A DNA stretch of 64,000 bases from an uncultured Dehalococcoidia bacterium (GTDB taxonomy: Bacteria; Chloroflexota; Dehalococcoidia; Lucifugimonadales; JADFKI01). The DNA lies in assembly GCA_958295865.1 (NCBI GenBank), contig CATQHF010000003.1, positions 434,001-498,000 of the forward strand. The letters run 5' to 3'. How positions within the stretch are numbered: the stretch's first letter is position 1; each line of letters opens with the position of its first letter. Below, one piece after another: positions 393 to 64,000 of the stretch. The position numbers and the translations under genes were made by a program. The notes beneath the pieces are model-generated. The model did no database searches and had not been told where the DNA came from. It worked only from the letters and a program-made list of their open reading frames with translations.

Positions 393-737
393 ATGCCTTC
401 TTCGGTGATCGAACTTAAACTACAGATGGCTAGGGCGATGGATGTCATCGTTACAGAGGAAGCCTTGACTGTGGAATTGGAGGATGCGCGGACGGTATCC
501 GCGCCTCTGGGGTGGTATCCGCGCTTACTCTTCGCTACGCCGGAAGAGCGCGACAACTGGCGCTTGATTGGCGGGGGCGAAGGCATACACTGGCCGGACT
601 TGGATGAGGACATCAGCGTAGAAGGGCTGCTTATTGGCAATCCGTCGGGGGAAACTGAAAGGTCGTTCAAGCGTTGGGTGGAGTGGAGGGAGGTTCATGG
701 CAAGACTGAGGATAGGGTCAAGGTGATTGGCGATTAG
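393..737 (+). CDS. DUF2442 domain protein
   Basis: A protein of 114 residues with the DUF2442 pattern: an N-terminal beta-rich part (VTEEALTVELEDARTVSAPL), an aromatic GWYPRLLFATPEERDNW stretch, and GEGIHWPDLDEDISVEGLL near the C-terminus. I chose the ATG at 393 because TTGGAG lies six bases upstream; an in-frame TTG at 381 is the alternative. The DNA at 541-700 is closely similar to 1-160, so this gene and the truncated gene before it are tandem paralogues. DUF2442 proteins are often found beside DUF4160 proteins as a presumed antitoxin-like partner, but no DUF4160 gene is seen here. Function unknown. Confidence 0.75.
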   Translation: MPSSVIELKLQMARAMDVIVTEEALTVELEDARTVSAPLGWYPRLLFATPEERDNWRLIGGGEGIHWPDLDEDISVEGLLIGNPSGETERSFKRWVEWREVHGKTEDRVKVIGD

Positions 738-994
738 CCGCAAGATTTTTCACTTGTCCTCTAGGACGGAGTGAAGGGGCTAGAATCTTTGTCATATTAG
801 GCGTGTTGGTGGCGGGGATTTTAGATTCCTCACTGCGTTCGGAATGACAGAAAAAATTGATCAGAATAACAAGGGCGAGTGCTTGGAATGACAGGGGTAG
901 GCGTTTGGAGTGATAGGGGAAATTGCTTGGGATGATAGTGAGAACGATGCTCTGACAATTGAAATGTCCTACTAGCTGGCAGATGGAGCAATCA
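738..994. repeat. Repeat-filled gap (Rep-B, long form)
   Basis: Contains the long form of Rep-B: a GGACGGAGTGAAGGGGCT block, GGCGTGTTGGTGGCGGGGAT, then TTAGATTCCTCACTGCGTTC and GGAATGAC, followed by degenerate GGAATGACAGGGG-type units ending near CTCTGACAATTGAAA. The same block order occurs at about 30725-30970 and in part at 44790-44865. No gene is apparent. Confidence 0.7.
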
Positions 995-1639
995 ATGGAC
1001 AGAGAACTTTTGGACAGGAACATTGAGCCTGTAAGATGGCAAATCGCTCACTCATTTGCACAGTGGACTGCTCGTGCAGCAACTCAGTCTCAGGGAACAA
1101 GAGATAGATTCCCTAATAAACAAAAAGAGATCAACGGTTATTTGGGAACTGTTGAATTCGATAGTCTGTTTGACATGTCCTTAGGCACAATTGAAAAGGA
1201 TGAATTCAATGAGTGGCATGTCGCACAAGTTAACAATCTAATGAACTGTCATCCTAATATCAATGTAGGATGGGCAGCGAAGATGATTGCCGTTTATCTC
1301 AAAACGACCTGCTATTTAGCGGGATTCGGTAGGGATGGTTTGGACACTGTAATTCATCCACCGTTTGACAACAAACTAATGAGGAATATGGGAGAATATG
1401 CCCATCAATCCCTCGTTGATTCGATAGAAAGCCTCAAGGACGTTGATGCTGATTTATATGAGATCGCGTTCAGAAATTTGGATGGTTTCTTAAGTGCTCG
1501 AAGGGAGGACATGAGCACTCGAATAAAAGACGTTGACGAAGACTTTTATTGGCAAGTGCTTATCGTAACTTGTGAGAGTGTTGCTGAACAACTGGGATGC
1601 ACACTTTTTGAAGTGGAACAGCTGTGGACGACGGAGTAG
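995..1639 (+). CDS. Hypothetical soluble protein, low-GC
   Basis: A protein of about 214 residues that I do not recognise. The ATG at 995 is preceded by GGAG at the right spacing; the ATG at 983 is possible, and the TTG at 959 is unlikely because it lies in repeat sequence. It has no signal peptide or membrane segment. It looks mainly helical, with a central GWAAKMIAVYLKTTCYLAGF stretch followed by HPPFDNKLMRNM and an acidic C-terminal part. The DNA is visibly more AT-rich than argG and the other core genes, which fits recent transfer. It stops seven bases before the next DUF2442 fusion gene, so the two may be co-transcribed as an accessory pair. Confidence 0.55.
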   Translation: MDRELLDRNIEPVRWQIAHSFAQWTARAATQSQGTRDRFPNKQKEINGYLGTVEFDSLFDMSLGTIEKDEFNEWHVAQVNNLMNCHPNINVGWAAKMIAVYLKTTCYLAGFGRDGLDTVIHPPFDNKLMRNMGEYAHQSLVDSIESLKDVDADLYEIAFRNLDGFLSARREDMSTRIKDVDEDFYWQVLIVTCESVAEQLGCTLFEVEQLWTTE

Positions 1640-1645
1640 GGGAAG

Positions 1646-2062
1646 ATGTTCCCAGAGATAGTTGATTCCAAGTATGTCGCCGGCTATAAGGTGTGGCTTA
1701 AGTTTGACGACGGCAAAGAAGGGGAGATTGACCTGAAGGGTGAGTTGTGGGGGGAGATATTTGAGCCGCTCAACGATGTGAACTATTTCAAGCGGGTTCG
1801 ACTTGACAAGGAACTCGGCACTATATGTTGGGAGAACGGCGCTGATTTCGCGCCCGAATTCCTGTATGACAACTTGAAGACGGACTACATAACCCAAGTG
1901 TGGGAACGGTCGGATATACGGAATATGAGCATTGATGAACGCCTTGAACTCATAGGGAAAATCCGGGACAGCATCGAAGCCGAACGGGACAAGATGACTG
2001 TAACGGATGCCCGAAAATGGGAAGCCGTAGAAGCCGGACTCACATCCGCGAAGGACGAATAA
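1646..2062 (+). CDS. DUF2442 / addiction-module-component fusion
   Basis: 138 residues. Residues 1-82 are a classic DUF2442 domain (VWLKFDDGKEGEIDL, LWGEIFEPLND, TICWENGADFAPEFLYD). Residues 83-138 are helical and resemble the putative addiction module component family (MSIDERLELIGKIRDSIEAE). The first gene in the window has the same arrangement, so the fusion is recurrent rather than a chance read-through. A purine-rich AGGGGAAG lies directly before the ATG. The gene ends seven bases before argG, on the same strand, so it probably shares a transcript with argG without being related in function. The role as an antitoxin is inferred only from family context. Confidence 0.75.
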   Translation: MFPEIVDSKYVAGYKVWLKFDDGKEGEIDLKGELWGEIFEPLNDVNYFKRVRLDKELGTICWENGADFAPEFLYDNLKTDYITQVWERSDIRNMSIDERLELIGKIRDSIEAERDKMTVTDARKWEAVEAGLTSAKDE

Positions 2063-2068
2063 GCACTG

Positions 2069-3331
2069 ATGAATTGGCGTGAATTGAAGGATGGCGGTAT
2101 AACGCAGGTGGCGGGGGCGGTGTCGGGTGGGCTGGATAGCTGCACGGTTACGCACTGGCTGAAGGGCAAGGGCTTTTCGGTGCATTGCTATACGGTTGAC
2201 TTGGGGCAGCCGGATGAGGAGAGCCTGGATGCGGTGAAAGAGCGCATGGTTGGCTGCGGCGCGGAGGGCGCGCATATCATACCGGGGCAGGATGCGCTGG
2301 CGGAGGCGGGGCTGAAGGTCATACAGTCGCAGGCGCGGTATGAGGGCGGCTATTGGAATACGACGGGCATTGCTCGTCCGATCACGGTTGGGGCGATGCT
2401 GCCGGAGATCCAGGGGCAGGGGATAGGCGTGCTGTTTCATGGCGCGACGGGGCGAGGCAACGACCAGGTGCGCTTTCAGCTCGCTGCCAACACGCTTGAG
2501 CCGTCGCTGCATGTGTATGCGCCATGGCGCGATCCTGAGTTCGTGGAGCAGTTTCCCGGACGCCAGCAGATGCTCGACTACTGCGAGAAGTATGACTTGC
2601 CTATACGGCCGGCGCGCGAGTCGCGTTACTCTACGGACGCAAACTTTCTGGGGCTGACGCACGAGGCGGGCGACCTCGAGGATGTTACAATCTCGCCGGT
2701 GTTCGTGGAGCCTGGGATGGGGGTTTGGCCGTGGGACGCTCCCGATGAGCCTGAGGTCGTTACTATACGATGGGAGCGGGGGGTTCCGGTGGAGCTCAAT
2801 GGCAGGCGCATGGGGCTTGTCGATATGTTTCAGGAGGCGAACCGCGTTGCGGGCGCGCATGGCGTCGGCATCGGCACGCATGTGGTTGAGAACAGGTTTG
2901 TGGGCGTGAAGTCGCGCGGTATCTATGAGTCGCCGGGGATTGAGTTGCTGGGGCGCAGCTATGAATATATGCTGCAATTCATTCTCGATCGGCGGGCGCG
3001 CGAACTCTTTGACTATCTGTCGGGGGTGATAAGCCTTCAGATATATCAGGGGTACTGGCTGGACTTGGCGACTACGGCGGCGCTGGCGGCGCTGGAGCCG
3101 ATGACACGGCTTGCCACCGCCACTATCTCGGTGAGGCTGTTCAAGGGCGGGATATTCTTCGATACTGCCGAGGATACGCCGGATGCGATGCCGCACTCGC
3201 TCTATACCGATGACTCGTCCATGGAGGCGATGGGGACTTACGACCACTCGGACGCGGAGGGCTTTTTGAAGGTGCTGGGCATATCGTCCAAGAATGTGGG
3301 GACACGGCAGTTTCCGCATCTGGGGCGATGA
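2069..3331 (+). CDS. argG: Argininosuccinate synthase
   Basis: Catalyses ATP-dependent condensation of citrulline and aspartate to argininosuccinate, the penultimate step of arginine synthesis, in the cytosol. The 420-residue length fits. The N-terminal PP-loop nucleotide motif is SGGLDSCTVTHWL, with the serine in the place usually taken by threonine. YTVDLGQPDE follows, then the substrate-binding HGATGRGNDQVRFQ typical of the family. The C-terminal part (GRSYEYMLQFILDRRARELFD) is the dimer and synthetase region. argH lies about 3.8 kb downstream on the same strand, separated by accessory genes. argC is at 48.2 kb, so the arginine genes are dispersed. Confidence 0.93.
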   Translation: MNWRELKDGGITQVAGAVSGGLDSCTVTHWLKGKGFSVHCYTVDLGQPDEESLDAVKERMVGCGAEGAHIIPGQDALAEAGLKVIQSQARYEGGYWNTTGIARPITVGAMLPEIQGQGIGVLFHGATGRGNDQVRFQLAANTLEPSLHVYAPWRDPEFVEQFPGRQQMLDYCEKYDLPIRPARESRYSTDANFLGLTHEAGDLEDVTISPVFVEPGMGVWPWDAPDEPEVVTIRWERGVPVELNGRRMGLVDMFQEANRVAGAHGVGIGTHVVENRFVGVKSRGIYESPGIELLGRSYEYMLQFILDRRARELFDYLSGVISLQIYQGYWLDLATTAALAALEPMTRLATATISVRLFKGGIFFDTAEDTPDAMPHSLYTDDSSMEAMGTYDHSDAEGFLKVLGISSKNVGTRQFPHLGR

Positions 3332-3346
3332 AGGGAGGCGACGAAT

Positions 3347-3577
3347 ATGGGGGAATTCATGACCATAGAGGAGATATACGCTCAGTTCGAGTCGGAATGG
3401 GTGGTTCTATCAGACCCCGTAACCAACGACAAACGGGAGGTCAAGGGGGGCATACTGGTATCGCACGGCAAGCACAAGGATGAGGTGTATGACAAGGCAT
3501 CGGAGATTCCGCCTCCTCACAACCTCGCGTTCATGTACACGGGGAAAATTCCGGATGGGACGGTGGTTGTCATTTGA
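3347..3577 (+). CDS. Small protein upstream of retropepsin-like protease
   Basis: A 76-residue protein of unknown function, with N-terminal MTIEEIYAQFESEWVVL and a central KGGILVSHGKHKDEVYDKA. Its stop codon overlaps the TTG start of the retropepsin-like gene (TTGA), so the two are translationally coupled. Small proteins of this type commonly sit directly before clan AA retropepsin-like genes in bacteria, in the way toxin-antitoxin partners do (family context, not shown here). The ATG at 3347 is preceded by GGGAGGCGACGAAT. The ATG at 3359 (MTIEEIY) is an equally reasonable start. Confidence 0.65.
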   Translation: MGEFMTIEEIYAQFESEWVVLSDPVTNDKREVKGGILVSHGKHKDEVYDKASEIPPPHNLAFMYTGKIPDGTVVVI

Positions 3578-14230: not shown

Positions 14231-15003
14231 TGTTCACCTCGCTGATGTGGGTAATGTCGGCGTATATCATACCATTATCAATTGAGAATTAGGAATTAAG
14301 AATTAGGAATTGGGTTGTGTTTGGGCTTGGGGCGCGATGTTTGGCGGCGTGATGGCAAGACGGAGTGCATCGGAATTAAGAATTAGGAATTAAGAATTGG
14401 GAATTGGGGGATGGCGAGCGGGTGCGGTGTGGGCGATGGCGAGCGGGCGTGCGGTTAGGGCGGGTGCGGGGCGATGGGGGCGACTGCCAGTTGCCGCTAC
14501 CGGAGAGTGGCTGATAGGGGAGGGAATTGAGAATTGAGGAATGGCGAGCGGGCGTGCGGTTAGGGCGGGTGCGGGGTGCCGCTACAAGGGCGGAGCACTC
14601 GGAATGACGGGCGAAATTGCTGTGTCATGTTCAGGATGACGGCAACTTAGGATTTTTGATTCCTCACGCTGTTCGGAATGACAGGGGGAATTGCTGCGGT
14701 GTGTTTGGGATGGCGCAGTATTGAAGGCGCTGGATTCCTGCCCCTGCTTTCGCCGGGGTGACGGGGTGAAAAGTCTAAATGTCCACAGAGCCTGGCACAG
14801 GTTTAGCCGTCGATGGGCAAGCATTTTCGCCCCCATCCTAACCTTCCCCCAGAGGGGGAAGGGACAATCACATCTGCGGCGTCCTCGCCTCGCCGACGAA
14901 CCTTCCCTCGTCAAGGGGGAAGGGACTAATGCAATTTTCTCAGTTATTCGGTCAAGATCTTTCAGTCGTAGCGTCCCCCCTGTGATCCTGAACGCCGCTG
15001 CTG
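14231..15003. repeat. Repeat-filled gap (Rep-C, B, E, G end, A)
   Basis: Two or three Rep-C fragments (about 14282-14410), with degenerate GGGCGTGCGGTTAGGGCGGG repeats at 14435-14580. Rep-B is at about 14645-14690 and Rep-E at about 14725-14765. At about 14770-14793 is a sequence matching the inverted end of Rep-G (AAATGTCCACAGAGCCT), followed by Rep-A. No gene is visible. Confidence 0.7.
14796..14942. repeat. Rep-A copy 1 (long form)
   Basis: Begins inside the element at GGTTTAGCCGTCGATGGGC and ends at AATGCAATTTTCT. It contains the internal hairpin CCTTCCCCC..GGGGGAAGG and the extra ACATCTGCGGCGTCC / CGCCGACGAACCTTCCC segment found in the long copies at 18.2 and 26.5 kb. Confidence 0.75.
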
Positions 15004-16005: not shown

Positions 16006-16510
16006 CGGAATTAAGAATTAGAAATTAAGAATTAAGAATTGGGTTGGGGTTTAGGCTTGGTGTGCGGGATGTTTCGTGGATTGATGGCGAGACGGAGTGC
16101 GAAGGTGGTTGCTGAAGTTTGTGTGTTTGGTGGATTGGGATTTTTGATTCCTCACGCTGTTCGGAATGACAGGGGTGTCAATTAAGAATTGAGAATTAGG
16201 AATTAAGAATTGGGTTGTGTTTGGGCTTGGGGCGCGATGTTTGGCGGCGTGATGGCAAGACGGAGTGCAAGGGTGGTTGGTGAAGTTTAGGGGTTCGGTG
16301 GTCTGGGATTTTTGATTCCTCACTGCGTTCGGAATGACAGGGGGAGGGCGCGGGATGATAGGGGAGCGTTTGGGATGGCAAGGGGGATTGCTGGGGGGTG
16401 TTTGGGATGGTGGCGTTGGGGGCGCTGGATTCCTGCCCCTGCTTTCGCAGGGGTGACGTTCTTTCGCAGGAATGACGGGGGTGGGTGTTCGGAAGGGTGG
16501 TTCGACAGGC

Positions 16511-16617
16511 TCACCACGAACGAAAAAACGGCTGACTACGAACGAAAAAACGGCTGACTACGAGCGAGAAAATCGGTTTGCTGCGAACGGAGAAAATCGG
16601 CTCGTTGCGAATGGGGA
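16511..16617. repeat. Tandem array of 22-24 bp units derived from Rep-D
   Basis: About five degenerate units, each holding a C-x-x-C/G-CGA(A/G)CG(A/G)A core (CTCACCACGAACG, CTGACTACGAACG, CTGACTACGAGCG, TTGCTGCGAACG, CTCGTTGCGAATG) separated by AAAAAACGG-like spacers. The same Rep-D tail has expanded in phase inside the M14 peptidase gene at the right edge. Confidence 0.7.
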
Positions 16618-21748: not shown

Positions 21749-22173
21749 TGGTTTTGCCTTTCGTGTTTGTCATTATAGACGGAATTGTGGGGAAAGGGGG
21801 GAGGAATTAAGAATTAAAAATTAGGAATTAAGAATTGTGTTGTGTTTAGGGTTGGTGTGCGATGTTTTGCGGTGTGAGGGCGACGGATGTTCAAGGGTGG
21901 TTCGACAAGCTCACCACGAACGGAAAGGGGCTGGGCGGTTGGGGTTTTGGGCTGTGCTACAATGTGCTGAGCAATATGGGTTGTTGGGAGAGAATTGCAT
22001 TGGTATGGTTTAGCCGTTGATGGGCAAGCATTTTCGCCCCCATCCTAACCTTCCCCCAGAGGGGGAAGGGACTAATGCAATGTATTGGGCAAGCATTTTC
22101 ACCCTCCATCCTAACCTTCGCCCATTAAGGGGGAAGGGGCTAATGCGATTTTCTCGTTGTTGGAGGCTTGGCT
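21749..22173. repeat. Repeat-filled gap (Rep-C, D, A)
   Basis: Rep-C from about 21802 to 21895, Rep-D at about 21898-21922 (GGTTCGACAAGCTCACCACG), then Rep-A copy 4. TGGAGG near 22161 is the ribosome binding site of the Uma2 gene. Confidence 0.7.
21988..22155. repeat. Rep-A copy 4 (complete, both termini)
   Basis: Left end GAGAGAATTGCATTGGTA, right end GGCTAATGCGATTTTCTC; the two are inverse of each other. The interior has two successive CCATCCTAACCTTC blocks, so it looks like a head-to-tail partial duplication of the element. Confidence 0.75.
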
Positions 22174-30423: not shown

Positions 30424-31209
30424 GGGGGTATCAATTAAGAATTAGGAATTGAGAATTAAGAATTATAGATGGAGGGAGTTGGTAGAACTTATCTCGTAGA
30501 TGGGTTGATTGCGATTTTCGGGGTGAAGGGCGGGGTTGGTTGTGCTTGGGTGTGTCTTTGACGCTCGGGATTGCTCTTGATTTCGCAGGGGTGATGTCCT
30601 TTTGCGGGAATGACGGGTGACTTCCAGAGGCTCACGGGACCAGGGCGATGGGGTTGTGGTGGTTCGCCCTTCGACGAGCTCAGGGGGGCTCGCTATGGAC
30701 GGGGGGGAATCGGGGTCTTTGGATTGTCGTCTTGGACGGAGTGAGGGGGCTGGAATGCTTGCCATGTGGGGCGTGTTGGTGGCGGGGATTTTTGATTCCT
30801 CACTCCGCTGTGCTGCGTTCGGAATGACAGGGGAGGGGGCGCTCGGGATGACAGGGGGAGGGGGCGCCTGGAATGACGGGAGAAATTGCTCGGAATGACG
30901 GGAGAAATTGCTCGGAATGGCAGGGGGAGACGCTTGGAATGACGGGGGTGGACGCTCTGGCAATTGAAAGACGCCAATCTTCTGTTTGAGAAAATTGCAT
31001 TAGTACAGTTTAGCCGTCGATGGGCGAGCGTTTTCGCCCCCATCCTAACCTTCCCCCAAAGGGGGAAGGGACAATCACGCCCTAGGATTGCGCTTGACAG
31101 CAGGCAACCTTCCTCCATCAAGGGGGAAGGGACTAATTCAATTTTATCTCTGTTTTTTGTCGACGTCCGGGTGTGCCGAGTTGTGTTATAATTTGGGGAG
31201 GTTTGCGGG
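30424..31209. repeat. Repeat-filled gap (Rep-C, H, E, D-like, B, A)
   Basis: A short Rep-C at 30430-30468, a degenerate Rep-H at about 30485-30610 (GAACTTATCTCGTAGATGGG, TTGCGATTTTCGGGG), a Rep-D-related TTCGACGAGCTCAGG at about 30670, Rep-B long form at about 30725-30960, then Rep-A copy 6. TGTGTTATAATTTGGGG, ending near 31200, looks like the -10 region of the tRNA-Ser promoter. Confidence 0.7.
30988..31150. repeat. Rep-A copy 6 (both termini)
   Basis: Left end GAGAAAATTGCATTAGTACA, right end GACTAATTCAATTTTATCTC. The middle segment (CACGCCCTAGGATTGCGC) differs from the CATCTGCGGCGTC segment of other long copies. Confidence 0.75.
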
Positions 31210-34979: not shown

Positions 34980-35085
34980 GCGTCGCCGGCGTGGTTCGAC
35001 AGGCTCACCACGAACGGATGGATTAACGGGTAAGTTGCTGCGATAATCAAATACATGTCTCAGTCAGGCATGAACGGGTGTGTTG

Positions 35086-41892: not shown

Positions 41893-41960
41893 GGAATTAG
41901 AAATTAAGAATTGGGAATTAAGAATTGGGTTGTGTTGAGGCTTGGAATAGGAGGATACGG

Positions 41961-45967: not shown

Positions 45968-46648
45968 ATGGAGTCTTCTTTTCCCGCGCTTCCCGCGTTC
46001 CCCGCGCTGTGCCTAGTAACCGACCGTCGGCGGTGCAACGGCAGGCGTATCGAGGATGTCGTAGCCGCCGCGGTGGAGGGCGGCGTTGAGCTGGTGCAGT
46101 TGCGCGAGAAGGATATGTCCGCATCGGAACTATATTCGCTGGCGCGTCGGCTGAAGGCGATGGTAGAGGGCAGGGCGCTGCTGTTCGTGAACGACCGCCT
46201 GGATGTCGCGCTCGCGGCGAAAGCGGACGGCGCGCAGCTTGGGGAGAGCGCGCTGCCGTTGGATGCCGCAAGGCGCGTCGCGGGCGGCAGGCTGCTGCTG
46301 GGACGGAGCGTGCATAGCGTCGAGGGCGCGGTCGCGGCGGAGGCTGAGGGCGCGGATTTGCTGACGCTGGGGACGATATTTCCGACGGCGTCGCATCCCG
46401 ATGCTCCGACGGGCGGGTTGACGCTTGTGCGGGATGTCAACGCGGCGGTGAGCGTGCCATTCGTGGGGATAGGCGGCGTGACGGCGTCGAATGTGGGCGA
46501 TGTGGTGGCGCAGGGCGCATCCGGCGCGGCGGTGATTACGGCAATCACCACCAGCGCTGACCCTGCCGCCGCATCCGCCGCGCTGCTGGCGAGCATGCGG
46601 GCGGCATTCGCGCCGGTGGCGGTATCGGGCGCTGTGGGGAGTGCGTGA
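45968..46648 (+). CDS. thiE: Thiamine-phosphate synthase
   Basis: Joins HMP-pyrophosphate and thiazole phosphate to thiamine phosphate. 226 residues. Signatures: LCLVTDRRRCNGRRIEDVVA, GGVELVQLREKDMSASELYS, LLFVNDRLDVALAAKADGAQ, DLLTLGTIFPTASHPDAPTG and VPFVGIGGVTASNVGDVVAQ. The last 20 residues (LLASMRAAFAPVAVSGAVGS) are a tail that recurs, shifted in frame, at the end of the first thiS, showing that a tandem duplication took in the thiE 3' end. The stop overlaps the first thiS start (GTGA). Confidence 0.94.
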   Translation: MESSFPALPAFPALCLVTDRRRCNGRRIEDVVAAAVEGGVELVQLREKDMSASELYSLARRLKAMVEGRALLFVNDRLDVALAAKADGAQLGESALPLDAARRVAGGRLLLGRSVHSVEGAVAAEAEGADLLTLGTIFPTASHPDAPTGGLTLVRDVNAAVSVPFVGIGGVTASNVGDVVAQGASGAAVITAITTSADPAAASAALLASMRAAFAPVAVSGAVGSA

Positions 46649-46827
46649 TTACACTAAATATAAACGGCAAAAAGCGCACATTGGACGCGCCGGCACGCCT
46701 TGTTGACTACTTGGAGTCGCTTGAGGTGAACACCAAGTTCATCGCGGTCGCTCTCAACGGCACAGCGCCGGTGAGCATGCGGTCGGCACTTGCGGCGGTG
46801 GTATCGGGCGCTGTGAGGAGTGCATGA
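46645..46827 (+). pseudogene. Truncated thiS duplicate lacking the C-terminal Gly-Gly
   Basis: 60 residues starting with GTG inside the thiE stop. Residues 1-40 (MITLNINGKKRTLDAPARLV through VNTKFIAVALNGT) are almost identical to the complete thiS that follows. After residue 40 the sequence changes to a tail derived from the 3' end of thiE (MRSALAAVVSGAVRSA). The C-terminal -GG that ThiF adenylates is missing, so it cannot work as a sulfur carrier. It arose by tandem duplication of about 180 bp. Its stop overlaps the next ATG (ATGA), so it still passes translation on. Confidence 0.85.
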
Positions 46828-47027
46828 TTACACTAAACATAAACGGCAAAGAGCGCACATTGGACGCGCCGACACGCCTTGTTGACTACTTGGAGTCGCT
46901 TGAGGTGAATACCAAGTTCATCGCGGTCGCTCTCAACGGCACGGTGCTGCGACGCGAGGAGTTCGGCGACATCACGCTTGGCGAGGGCGACGAGGTGGAG
47001 ATTGTGCGCGCGGTCGGCGGTGGGTGA
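46824..47027 (+). CDS. thiS: Sulfur carrier protein ThiS
   Basis: 67 residues, ubiquitin-like fold; carries the thiocarboxylate used by ThiG. MITLNINGKERTLDAPTRLV, then VNTKFIAVALNGTVLRREEF, GDITLGEGDEVEIVRAVGGG. The C-terminus carries the required Gly-Gly (plus one extra Gly). It begins in the stop codon of the truncated duplicate. No thiF, thiO or thiH is seen in the window, so the ThiS-activating and glycine/tyrosine-derived imine enzymes must be elsewhere. Confidence 0.92.
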   Translation: MITLNINGKERTLDAPTRLVDYLESLEVNTKFIAVALNGTVLRREEFGDITLGEGDEVEIVRAVGGG

Positions 47028-59610: not shown

Positions 59611-59894
59611 GAATTAGAAATTAAAAATTAGGAATTAAGAATTGGGTTGTGTTGAGGGTTGGTGTGCGGGGTGTTTCGTGGCTTGATGGCAAGACGGAGT
59701 GAAAGGGTGTTGCTGAAGTCTAGGTATCCGGTAGGCTAGGATTTTAGATTTCTCGCTACGCTCGAAATGACAGGGATGGACGCTTGAAATGATAAGGGCG
59801 TGGGTTTCGGAATAACTGAGGCGGCATTAGGGGCGACCGGCCGGTGTCGCCCCTACATCTTCTTCCTGATGGCTGACAGGGGTGTTGAGTTAGG
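59611..59894. repeat. Repeat-filled gap (Rep-C, Rep-B)
   Basis: Rep-C from 59611 to about 59735 (AATTAGAAATTAAAAATTAG, GGGTTGTGTTGAGGGTT, GATGGCAAGACGGAGTG), then a degenerate Rep-B at about 59738-59778 (TTTCTCGCTACGCTCGAAAT). No gene. Confidence 0.7.
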
Positions 59895-61163: not shown

Positions 61164-61454
61164 GGTTCCTCCAGCCGTTTCTTCGTCAACTTGGGGGATA
61201 CCCGCAGGTAGTATCAAATTAGTGGCTTATCTTGTCAAGCGGGTGAGGTTTCTATTCCGATGAGTTGCTTATGCACTCTGTCCTTCGACAGGCTTCCTTC
61301 GACAAGCTCAGGACGAACGGGATTTCTGCCCCTGCTTTCGCAGGGATGACGGAACAAGGGTGCGGGGATGGCGAAACGAGGGTGTGGGAATGGCGAAAGG
61401 GTTTGCCACTTGAATGAAAATGGGCTAGGTTCTTCGCCTTTTGCGGGGGCGCGC
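61164..61454. repeat. Gap with Rep-D and Rep-E fragments
   Basis: Two Rep-D-like cores (TTCGACAGGCTTCC and TTCGACAAGCTCAGGACGAA) at about 61282-61317 and CCTGCTTTCGCAGGGATGAC at about 61330-61350. The rest, including a short GAATGGCGAAA tandem, has no clear meaning. Confidence 0.6.
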
Positions 61455-62044: not shown

Positions 62045-64000
62045 ATGACCATTGATAAACGGAAATCGATACCGACGCCCGGCGAGCATCTTGGATTTGA
62101 AGTGGGTGATGATCGCAAGCTTGCCGGCTGGGCGGAGATTGTGGACTACTTCAAGATACTCGATGAGTCGTCGGAGCGTGTGCGGACGCTTGAGATTGGG
62201 AGAAGCACGAAGGGCAACCCGTTTCTCATGGCGATCTGCTCTTCGCCGCAGAACCTTGCGGAGCTGGATGAGTTCAGGGGGATACAGGCGCGGCTGGCGG
62301 ATGCGCGCACTATCGCGGATGACGCTGAGGCGGAGCGGCTCATATCACGGGGCAGGGTGGTTGTTGCGATAACTTGCAGCATTCACGCTACGGAGGTGGG
62401 GGCGACGCAGATGTCGCTGCTTCTGGCGCATCGGCTTGCGACCTGCGAGAGCGATGAAGTGCGGCAGATTTTGGATAATGCGATAGTTCTGCTGCTGCCG
62501 AGCCTTAATCCGGACGGGCTGGTCGATGTGAAGACATGGTATGAGAGCACGCTGGGGGAATCTTATGAGGGCGTAATGCCGCCCTTCCTGTATCAGCACT
62601 ACACGGGGCATGACAACAACCGTGACTGGTTCATGTTCACGCAGCAGGAGACGCGGCTGGTGGTGGATCACTGCCTGAATGCGTGGCATCCGCATGTGGC
62701 GCTGGATATGCACCAGACGCGATCGAATGGCATGCGGATGATATTGCCGCCATTCGTCGATCCCGTTGGGCCGAATGTCCATCCGATACTGACTGCCGAG
62801 ACCGCGATGCTGGGTTCGGCTATGGCGGCGGAGCTGACGGCGCAGGGCAAGGCGGGGGTGTCCGTGAATGTGGTGTATGATTCGTACAGTCCCAATCGCA
62901 CATATCAGCAGTATCACGGCGGGATTCGGCTGCTTTCGGAGGCTGCGGGCGCGCGCATCGCCACGCCGGTGAATGTGCCGGAGCGCGATTTGCAATCTGA
63001 TCGGGGTGAGACGCCGACGCAAGAAACTTGGAATCATCCGATGCCGTGGAGGGGGGGAACATGGCGGCTGAGGGACATCGTGGAGTACGACTTCGAGGCT
63101 GCGATGGGCTGCCTGCGACATTCGGCGCGGCTGCGTGAAATGCTGGTGAGCAATTTCTACAAGGTGGGCAGGGATGCGGTCGAGGACAGCGGTTCGCCGT
63201 ATGCGTTCGTAGTTCCGACGCAGCAGCATGACATGGCGGCGGCGGCGGAGATGCTTGACGCGCTGCGGATGGGCATGGTGGAGATTCATGAGGCGACGGC
63301 GGCGTTCAGCGCGGATGGCGAGCCGTTCGCGGCGGGGGCGCGTGTCATTCTGAGGGGACAGCCGTATTGGGCGTATGCCAAGACGCTGCTGGAGCAGAAT
63401 AAGTATCCTGAGCTGCTGACGCATCCGGGGGGGCCGCCGAAAGCGCCGTATGATGTAACGGCGCACTGCCTGCCAATTCAGATGGGCGTCAATACATACA
63501 CTATCAGGGGCAAGTTCGCGGCTCAGCTCAGGCTGCTTGGGGCGAGCGAGCCGGCGATGCCTGTGCCGATGGGGGGTGGTTCGACAGGCTCACCACGAAC
63601 GAGGGATACAGGCTTGCCACGAACGAGAAGTACAGGCTCACCACGAGCGAGGGATACAGGCTCACTACGAGCGGGAAGTACAGGCTTGCCACGAACGATA
63701 AGTACAGGTTCAGCACGGGCGGGAGATAGGGAAGGGCAGCCGCGAATGGGGACGGGGCGGCTTGACGCTCGCATCATACCGCCGGAATCGAATGCGGCGG
63801 CGCGGCTGGTGAACCGACTGCTGGCGGCGGGCGTTCCGGTGTCGCGGACGAAAGAGCCGCTTACGCTGAACGGCGTGTCGTATGGGCGCGGGGCGTTTGT
63901 GGTGGAGGATGGGAAGGCATTTAACGATGTGGTTCGACAGGCTCACCACGAACGGGAAGTACAGGCTCACCACGAACGAGGATTGCAGGCTCACCACGAA
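62045..64000 (+). CDS. M14-family metallopeptidase, 3' truncated by window edge, with in-frame repeat insertions
   Basis: The frame opens at the ATG at 62045 (MTIDKRKSIPTPGEHLGFEV) and stays open to the right edge, at least 652 residues. Zinc site: ITCSIHATEVGATQMSLLL provides H-x-x-E, and HVALDMHQTRSNGMRM holds the second His. LPSLNPDGLVDVKTWY and YTGHDNNRDWFMFT are typical of the large M14 proteins (zinc carboxypeptidase-like, with a D-N-N-R-D loop). No signal peptide is visible. Rep-D sequence is inserted in frame at residues 512-560 and again from about residue 629. The normal domain between them (ARIIPPESNAAARLVNRLLA through GAFVVEDGK) is intact, so the protein may tolerate both. Confidence 0.8.
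   Translation, partial: MTIDKRKSIPTPGEHLGFEVGDDRKLAGWAEIVDYFKILDESSERVRTLEIGRSTKGNPFLMAICSSPQNLAELDEFRGIQARLADARTIADDAEAERLISRGRVVVAITCSIHATEVGATQMSLLLAHRLATCESDEVRQILDNAIVLLLPSLNPDGLVDVKTWYESTLGESYEGVMPPFLYQHYTGHDNNRDWFMFTQQETRLVVDHCLNAWHPHVALDMHQTRSNGMRMILPPFVDPVGPNVHPILTAETAMLGSAMAAELTAQGKAGVSVNVVYDSYSPNRTYQQYHGGIRLLSEAAGARIATPVNVPERDLQSDRGETPTQETWNHPMPWRGGTWRLRDIVEYDFEAAMGCLRHSARLREMLVSNFYKVGRDAVEDSGSPYAFVVPTQQHDMAAAAEMLDALRMGMVEIHEATAAFSADGEPFAAGARVILRGQPYWAYAKTLLEQNKYPELLTHPGGPPKAPYDVTAHCLPIQMGVNTYTIRGKFAAQLRLLGASEPAMPVPMGGGSTGSPRTRDTGLPRTRSTGSPRARDTGSLRAGSTGLPRTISTGSARAGDREGQPRMGTGRLDARIIPPESNAAARLVNRLLAAGVPVSRTKEPLTLNGVSYGRGAFVVEDGKAFNDVVRQAHHEREVQAHHERGLQAHHE
63578..63724 (+). repeat. 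In-frame Rep-D array in M14 peptidase gene (first)
   Basis: Starts GGTTCGACAGGCTCACCACG, then five degenerate 24-base units each ending in a C-A-C/T-G-A-A/G-C core. Read in frame they encode an 8-residue repeat (TRDTGLPR, TRSTGSPR, ARDTGSLR, AGSTGLPR, TISTGSAR). No stop arises in this frame. Length 147 bp. Confidence 0.85.
63931..64000 (+). repeat. In-frame Rep-D array in M14 peptidase gene (second)
   Basis: Same repeat core, GGTTCGACAGGCTCACCACG, read in another frame: VVRQAHHEREVQAHHERGLQ followed by AHHE at the edge. The unit length is again 24 bases. It continues past the window. Confidence 0.82.

Follow-up and report, generated by a model that had tools for sequence, protein, structure and literature searches.

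An M14 zinc carboxypeptidase gene of a SAR202-type bacterium (Chloroflexota) contains two in-frame tandem arrays of a short dispersed repeat, Rep-D, and the explanation which we regard as very probable is that Rep-D insertions were tolerated and amplified, being filtered for reading frame and for flexible linkers. The window, i.e., the whole stretch of 64,000 nucleotides that was analysed, corresponds to G000:C3:434001-498000 in a genome of 3.44 Mb in 6 contigs (G000), to which the closest relatives with a name are SAR202 cluster bacterium bin90, the Chloroflexi SB0664_bin_29 and TM_07, and an uncultured Dehalococcoidia; we take marine sponges to be the source of bins such as these. Of this genome the analysis covered stretches around Rep-D copies, about 390 kb in all, and each species was represented by one genome.

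The M14 gene is predicted on the forward strand from 62045 to the end of the window at 64000 and runs on to about 64876 (open frame 546-3377 of locus L009). It forms an intact frame of 943 codons from the ATG at 62045, of which the window covers the first 652, and the frame stays open through both arrays, with a normal C-terminal domain beyond the second. The profile search gave a match to PF00246 (E 7.8e-16, 59 bits vs a cut-off of 21.6), and the zinc ligands of the HxxE + H type were kept, with H114, E117, and H223 invariant in 10 homologues. By profile and zinc ligands, the predicted gene product is a peptidase of family M14. A repeat-free M14 homologue showed no sequence match among solved structures.

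The 20-bp core TTCGACAGGCTCACCACGAA is found at 63580-63599 and again at 63933-63952 without mismatch, in comparison to 0 occurrences expected from 100 shuffles, and a tandem array begins at each copy. Array 1 (forward strand, 63576-63728, with a degenerate tail to about 63760) consists of the leader GTGGTTCGACAGGCTCACCACGAACG and five more 24-bp units, giving six clear units of exactly 24 bp each, and is read as STGSPRTRDTGLPRTRS..., a peptide of the TGSPRT(RD/RS) type. Array 2 (forward strand, 63929 to about 64111, with 63929-64000 inside the window) begins with the Rep-D leader followed by further units, the unit lengths being 24, 24, 27, 24, 27, and 24 bp in order, and is read as VVRQAHHEREVQAHHERG..., a peptide of the QAHHER(E) type. 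The forward-strand segment between them, 63761-63928, aligns with homologues. The sequence-only reading of this DNA had proposed that the core enters the gene twice, read first as a TGSPR-type and then as a QAHHER-type repeat, and this is what the analysis found, both arrays lying in one 943-codon frame with the two peptides as different reading frames of one core. Its 24-bp unit holds exactly for array 1 but not for array 2, which mixes 24 and 27 bp, and its extent of 63578-64000 takes in only the first part of array 2, which continues outside the window.

Both arrays can be read, in different frames, because the Rep-D unit consensus contains no stop in any of the three sense frames and every retained unit is made of whole codons. 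Among the sense frames of both arrays, stops are confined to the two that are not read, a pattern which is weak evidence for translation because the independent stops are few. Judging from the sequence, we infer that the array peptides are translated in the cell. In the model of the window M14 protein, residues 509-573, coinciding with array 1, were below pLDDT 50, and array 2 was modelled as a low-confidence continuation of a helix. The peptides may serve as spacers that affect the enzyme little; that of array 1 would be disordered, and that of array 2 may lengthen a helix.

An alignment with 13 homologues from the order showed that the Rep-D arrays are missing from all 13, while the regions on either side are common to them. 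The four congeneric orthologues are 837-845 aa long and share the C-terminal region, and the array positions are short, variable stretches in the homologues; in the model of the repeat-free bin90 homologue both sites are low-confidence linkers (504-521 and 584-586). Two Rep-D arrays would have entered the M14 gene in this lineage, at two flexible linkers, after the lineage had split from its sequenced congeners. Because the array-free relatives, both the four congeners and outgroup families, continue into the same C-terminal domain, the finding that the sequence-only reading had named as counting against it, a stop before the repeats in close relatives, is not what is seen. For both flanking regions dN was 0.14-0.16 with dS > 1, and the similarity of the array-bearing M14 protein to outgroups was not lower than that of repeat-free congeners; the slow flanking divergence together with the equal closeness to outgroups indicates that the enzyme is still under constraint. 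The proposal that repeat-derived peptides are added to a real enzyme is supported by the in-frame arrays, the array-free orthologues, and the kept zinc ligands, as far as sequence can tell, and the effect of the arrays on the enzyme is probably small or near-neutral. The further claim of a well-conserved domain between the insertions has to be given up, since the inter-array segment is the least conserved aligned part, with 31-54% identity to outgroups in comparison to 55-65% for the M14 domain.

Rep-D itself is a dispersed 27-bp element with the consensus GTGGTTCGACARGCTCACCACGAACGG (118 copies) and about 100 copies in the genome, in which 107 places match the 20-bp core with at most 2 mismatches; related cores were found in 23 of the 60 genomes of the order. 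The window holds further forward-strand copies: an intergenic copy with 22-bp tandem units at 16501-16572, which serves as a comparison case, core matches outside predicted genes at 21901-21920 (one mismatch) and 34995-35014 (exact), and a variant of the GTCC/GGAC type upstream of the M14 gene at 61298-61317. The ends of the element covary (GTGG/CCAC in 80 copies, GTCC/GGAC in 5, GCCC/GGGC in 2, and GTGC/GCGC in 1); its fold energy was not better than that of shuffles (z -0.38), so a strong hairpin was not found by energy. In the consensus of the 118 copies the tetranucleotide tag GTAG or CGTC is missing at the end of Rep-D, where GTGG is found instead, with GTCC as a variant. In the genome, which is 94.65% complete, no RAYT gene (PF01797) was found, in comparison to matches in 5 of 14 control genomes, and RAYT was rejected as the mobiliser of Rep-D. 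Because the tag and RAYT tests both failed, Rep-D was not filed in the GTAG/CGTC superfamilies. Phage records gave no match to the arrays, and the literature searched held no mention of the core strings.

Another dispersed unit, about 970 bp long, contains a 270-aa ORF that belongs to no known family; 25 copies were seen, mostly 91-97% identical (L046:1925-2737, L044:1928-2716, L104:1513-2322, and about 22 further loci). Where Rep-D stands beside this unit, the two lie on opposite strands in 32 of 32 cases, with Rep-D placed 50-103 bp beyond the 3' end of the unit or else some 200 or 500 bp ahead of its 5' end. The unit may carry Rep-D along.

The two M14 arrays could also descend from a single Rep-D insertion, array 2 being a copy of array 1 that recombination moved within the gene. 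The arrays are 78% alike over 127 bases, closer to each other than either is to an intergenic array. Both of them, however, open with a complete Rep-D leader, the frame that is read differs between them, and related 24-bp units are also present in the intergenic array at C1:233.6k, so that we hold a single insertion to be possible but not the likely course of events. The M14 arrays may have been amplified in place or may have arrived ready-made.

In-frame insertion of Rep-D into conserved genes was found for M14, a DUF885 protein, a 467-aa family, and an MmgE/PrpD protein of G073, with Rep-D read antisense in two of the genes other than M14. The DUF885 protein (PF05960, 304 bits) carries EPTPSVRGEPSLPAHGEPTPSVRGEPVEP, which is an antisense reading of Rep-D, and this stretch is missing in four congeneric orthologues. 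A seven-residue repeat that ends in (V/G)RGEPV is present in the 467-aa gene as well as in its two paralogues (93-94% identical). Within the repeat stretch, one of these paralogues, in the same genome, is shorter by exactly 63 bp, i.e., three 21-bp units. Copy change without a frameshift, as the sequence-only reading had proposed, is illustrated by this family, while length variability of the M14 locus itself is not supported. The MmgE/PrpD protein (PF03972 and PF19305; L161:970-2502) comes from G073, a genome of another family of the order; its array, VVRQAHHERTLNQTHYEHTLNQAHHER... / VVRQAHHERTLNQTHYEH..., has 27-bp units read in the frame of M14 array 2 and is placed inside the N-terminal domain, where relatives align on both sides without the array. 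A search of NCBIfam returned nothing for the M14 proteins, for the 270-aa ORF, or for the 467-aa protein. Three other in-gene candidates (L064, L090, and L091, presumably SAICAR-synthetase-like, HisH-like, and amidase-like by our own reading of the sequences) were rejected, as each of them sits in an N-terminal extension, upstream of the start that is likely to be the true one.

Relatives were also found to carry other repeats in the same linkers. In the M14 orthologue of G008 (L018) the first linker holds a different in-frame repeat, of the CTTCCCCC..GGGGGAAGG type, and copies of this repeat are dispersed in G008 as well as in G000. The 467-aa family has, in G001, a linker (L125, L129, L133, and L136) with other in-frame dispersed repeats, read as SPLSPRERVRVRG, RHSCESRNP, and TDNSEL; the one read as RHSCESRNP, CATTCCTGCGAAAGCAGGAATCC, has 26 matches in G001 and 189 in G000. 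A broader but rather doubtful proposal is that certain linkers in this order are standing acceptor sites, which capture several unrelated dispersed repeats in frame and then change in length by gain or loss of units. If this proposal is true, intergenic repeats would routinely give rise to new disordered segments in proteins.

The reuse of the same linkers by different repeats in relatives, the whole-codon units, and the 63-bp in-frame difference between the paralogues of another array-bearing gene would also suit arrays that are adaptive, length-tunable linkers, in which gain or loss of units alters domain spacing and activity in the manner of a contingency locus. We consider such adaptation unlikely, given that the read frames yield different, unrelated peptides and that relatives without the repeats already have variable linkers at these sites, so that tolerance suffices to explain them. 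Under tolerated insertion, selection would act as a filter, and in-gene arrays would survive only in tolerant flexible segments and with frame-preserving units. Small dispersed repeats would land widely, and most landings in genes would be lost.

The distribution of Rep-D copies is consistent with such a filter. With gene calls near Rep-D copies made by a simple codon-usage script, the leaders lie inside real genes in 4 of 94 distinct copies, though 71% of the examined DNA is coding; the 94 copies are not independent landings because many adjoin the 970-bp unit. In about 40% of the non-coding copies, further units come after the leader at spacings of 20-60 bp, and these spacings have no preference modulo 3 (21, 19, and 19 over the three remainders). 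The coding units, in contrast, are always 21, 24, or 27 bp, namely 24 and 24/27 bp in the M14 gene, 24 bp in the DUF885 gene, 21 bp in the 467-aa family, and 27 bp in the G073 gene. Given that 10 of 37 non-coding arrays start with a multiple of three, the chance agreement of four independent coding arrays is 0.005 if ascertainment is ignored, and part of the frame rule is ascertainment, since genes broken by Rep-D were not systematically sought.

The assembly places the M14 locus at an unresolved contig junction, because C2:1-14951 is identical to C3:489538-504488 (contig ends; L040 and L041) and these 14,951 shared bases include the gene, which is thereby doubled in the assembly and was counted as one locus. 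Misassembled arrays, or a pseudogene that happens to stay open, might be suspected from these shared ends but are highly improbable, since both contig copies have identical arrays, 943 codons are open with the catalytic residues kept, the flanking domains show the same slow evolution as those of repeat-free congeners, and the pattern is seen again in three genes besides M14, including one from another genome.

Several known systems resemble Rep-D. The Rickettsia palindromic elements (RPE) of Ogata and Claverie, reviewed as 'protein-coding palindromes' (PMC2229807), are likewise dispersed short repeats in frame within genes for conserved proteins, and the enzyme apparently keeps its function. 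They differ in that their sequence is unrelated to Rep-D and that a CGTC end tag is an RPE feature (PMC3733652), while Rep-D makes codon-multiple tandem arrays, in two frames within one gene. Di Nocera et al. 2013 described intragenic GTAG/CGTC REPs, palindromic repeats of 20-40 bp in genes, with two insertions in a single gene, clusters that code for 43-82 aa, and insertions at the same site in orthologues (PMC3733652); Rep-D shares the intragenic setting, the double insertion, the clustering, and the same-site insertion in orthologues, but lacks the GTAG and CGTC tags, and no gene for a RAYT-type Y1 transposase was found in its genome. Coding minisatellites (e.g., PMC8161180) are also tandem units in multiples of three within genes which give amino-acid repeats, as the 24- and 27-bp units do in M14, whereas the source of the Rep-D unit is an element dispersed between genes, the non-coding arrays of which can take any period. 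MITE-gene fusions (PMC2229807, PMC5896051) similarly join small non-autonomous repeats in frame and change protein length, but MITEs are longer than the 27 bp of Rep-D, have terminal inverted repeats, and are not tandem. Rep-D works like intragenic REP or RPE, and this kind of event is already known. What seems to be new is that a dispersed element is expanded in tandem under a frame filter which can be measured, that two frames are used in one gene, and that unrelated repeats reuse the linkers.

The M14 gene offers a clear case of non-coding repeats becoming protein outside Rickettsia and Proteobacteria. The internal controls, that is, two frames in M14, antisense reading in two genes, and intergenic arrays of any period, make the filter on frame and linker position measurable, and since relatives carry other dispersed repeats in these linkers, the origin of new disordered protein segments can be approached by comparison of sister genomes.

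Other repeats were also observed in the window. A direct duplication of 179 bp, 92% identical and coding-looking, lies at 46591-46942. Tandem repeats of GAATTAA / AATTAAG with periods of 7 and 14 bp recur at 14280-14405, 16008-16343, 21804-21836, 30433-30465, 41894-41929, and 59612-59643.
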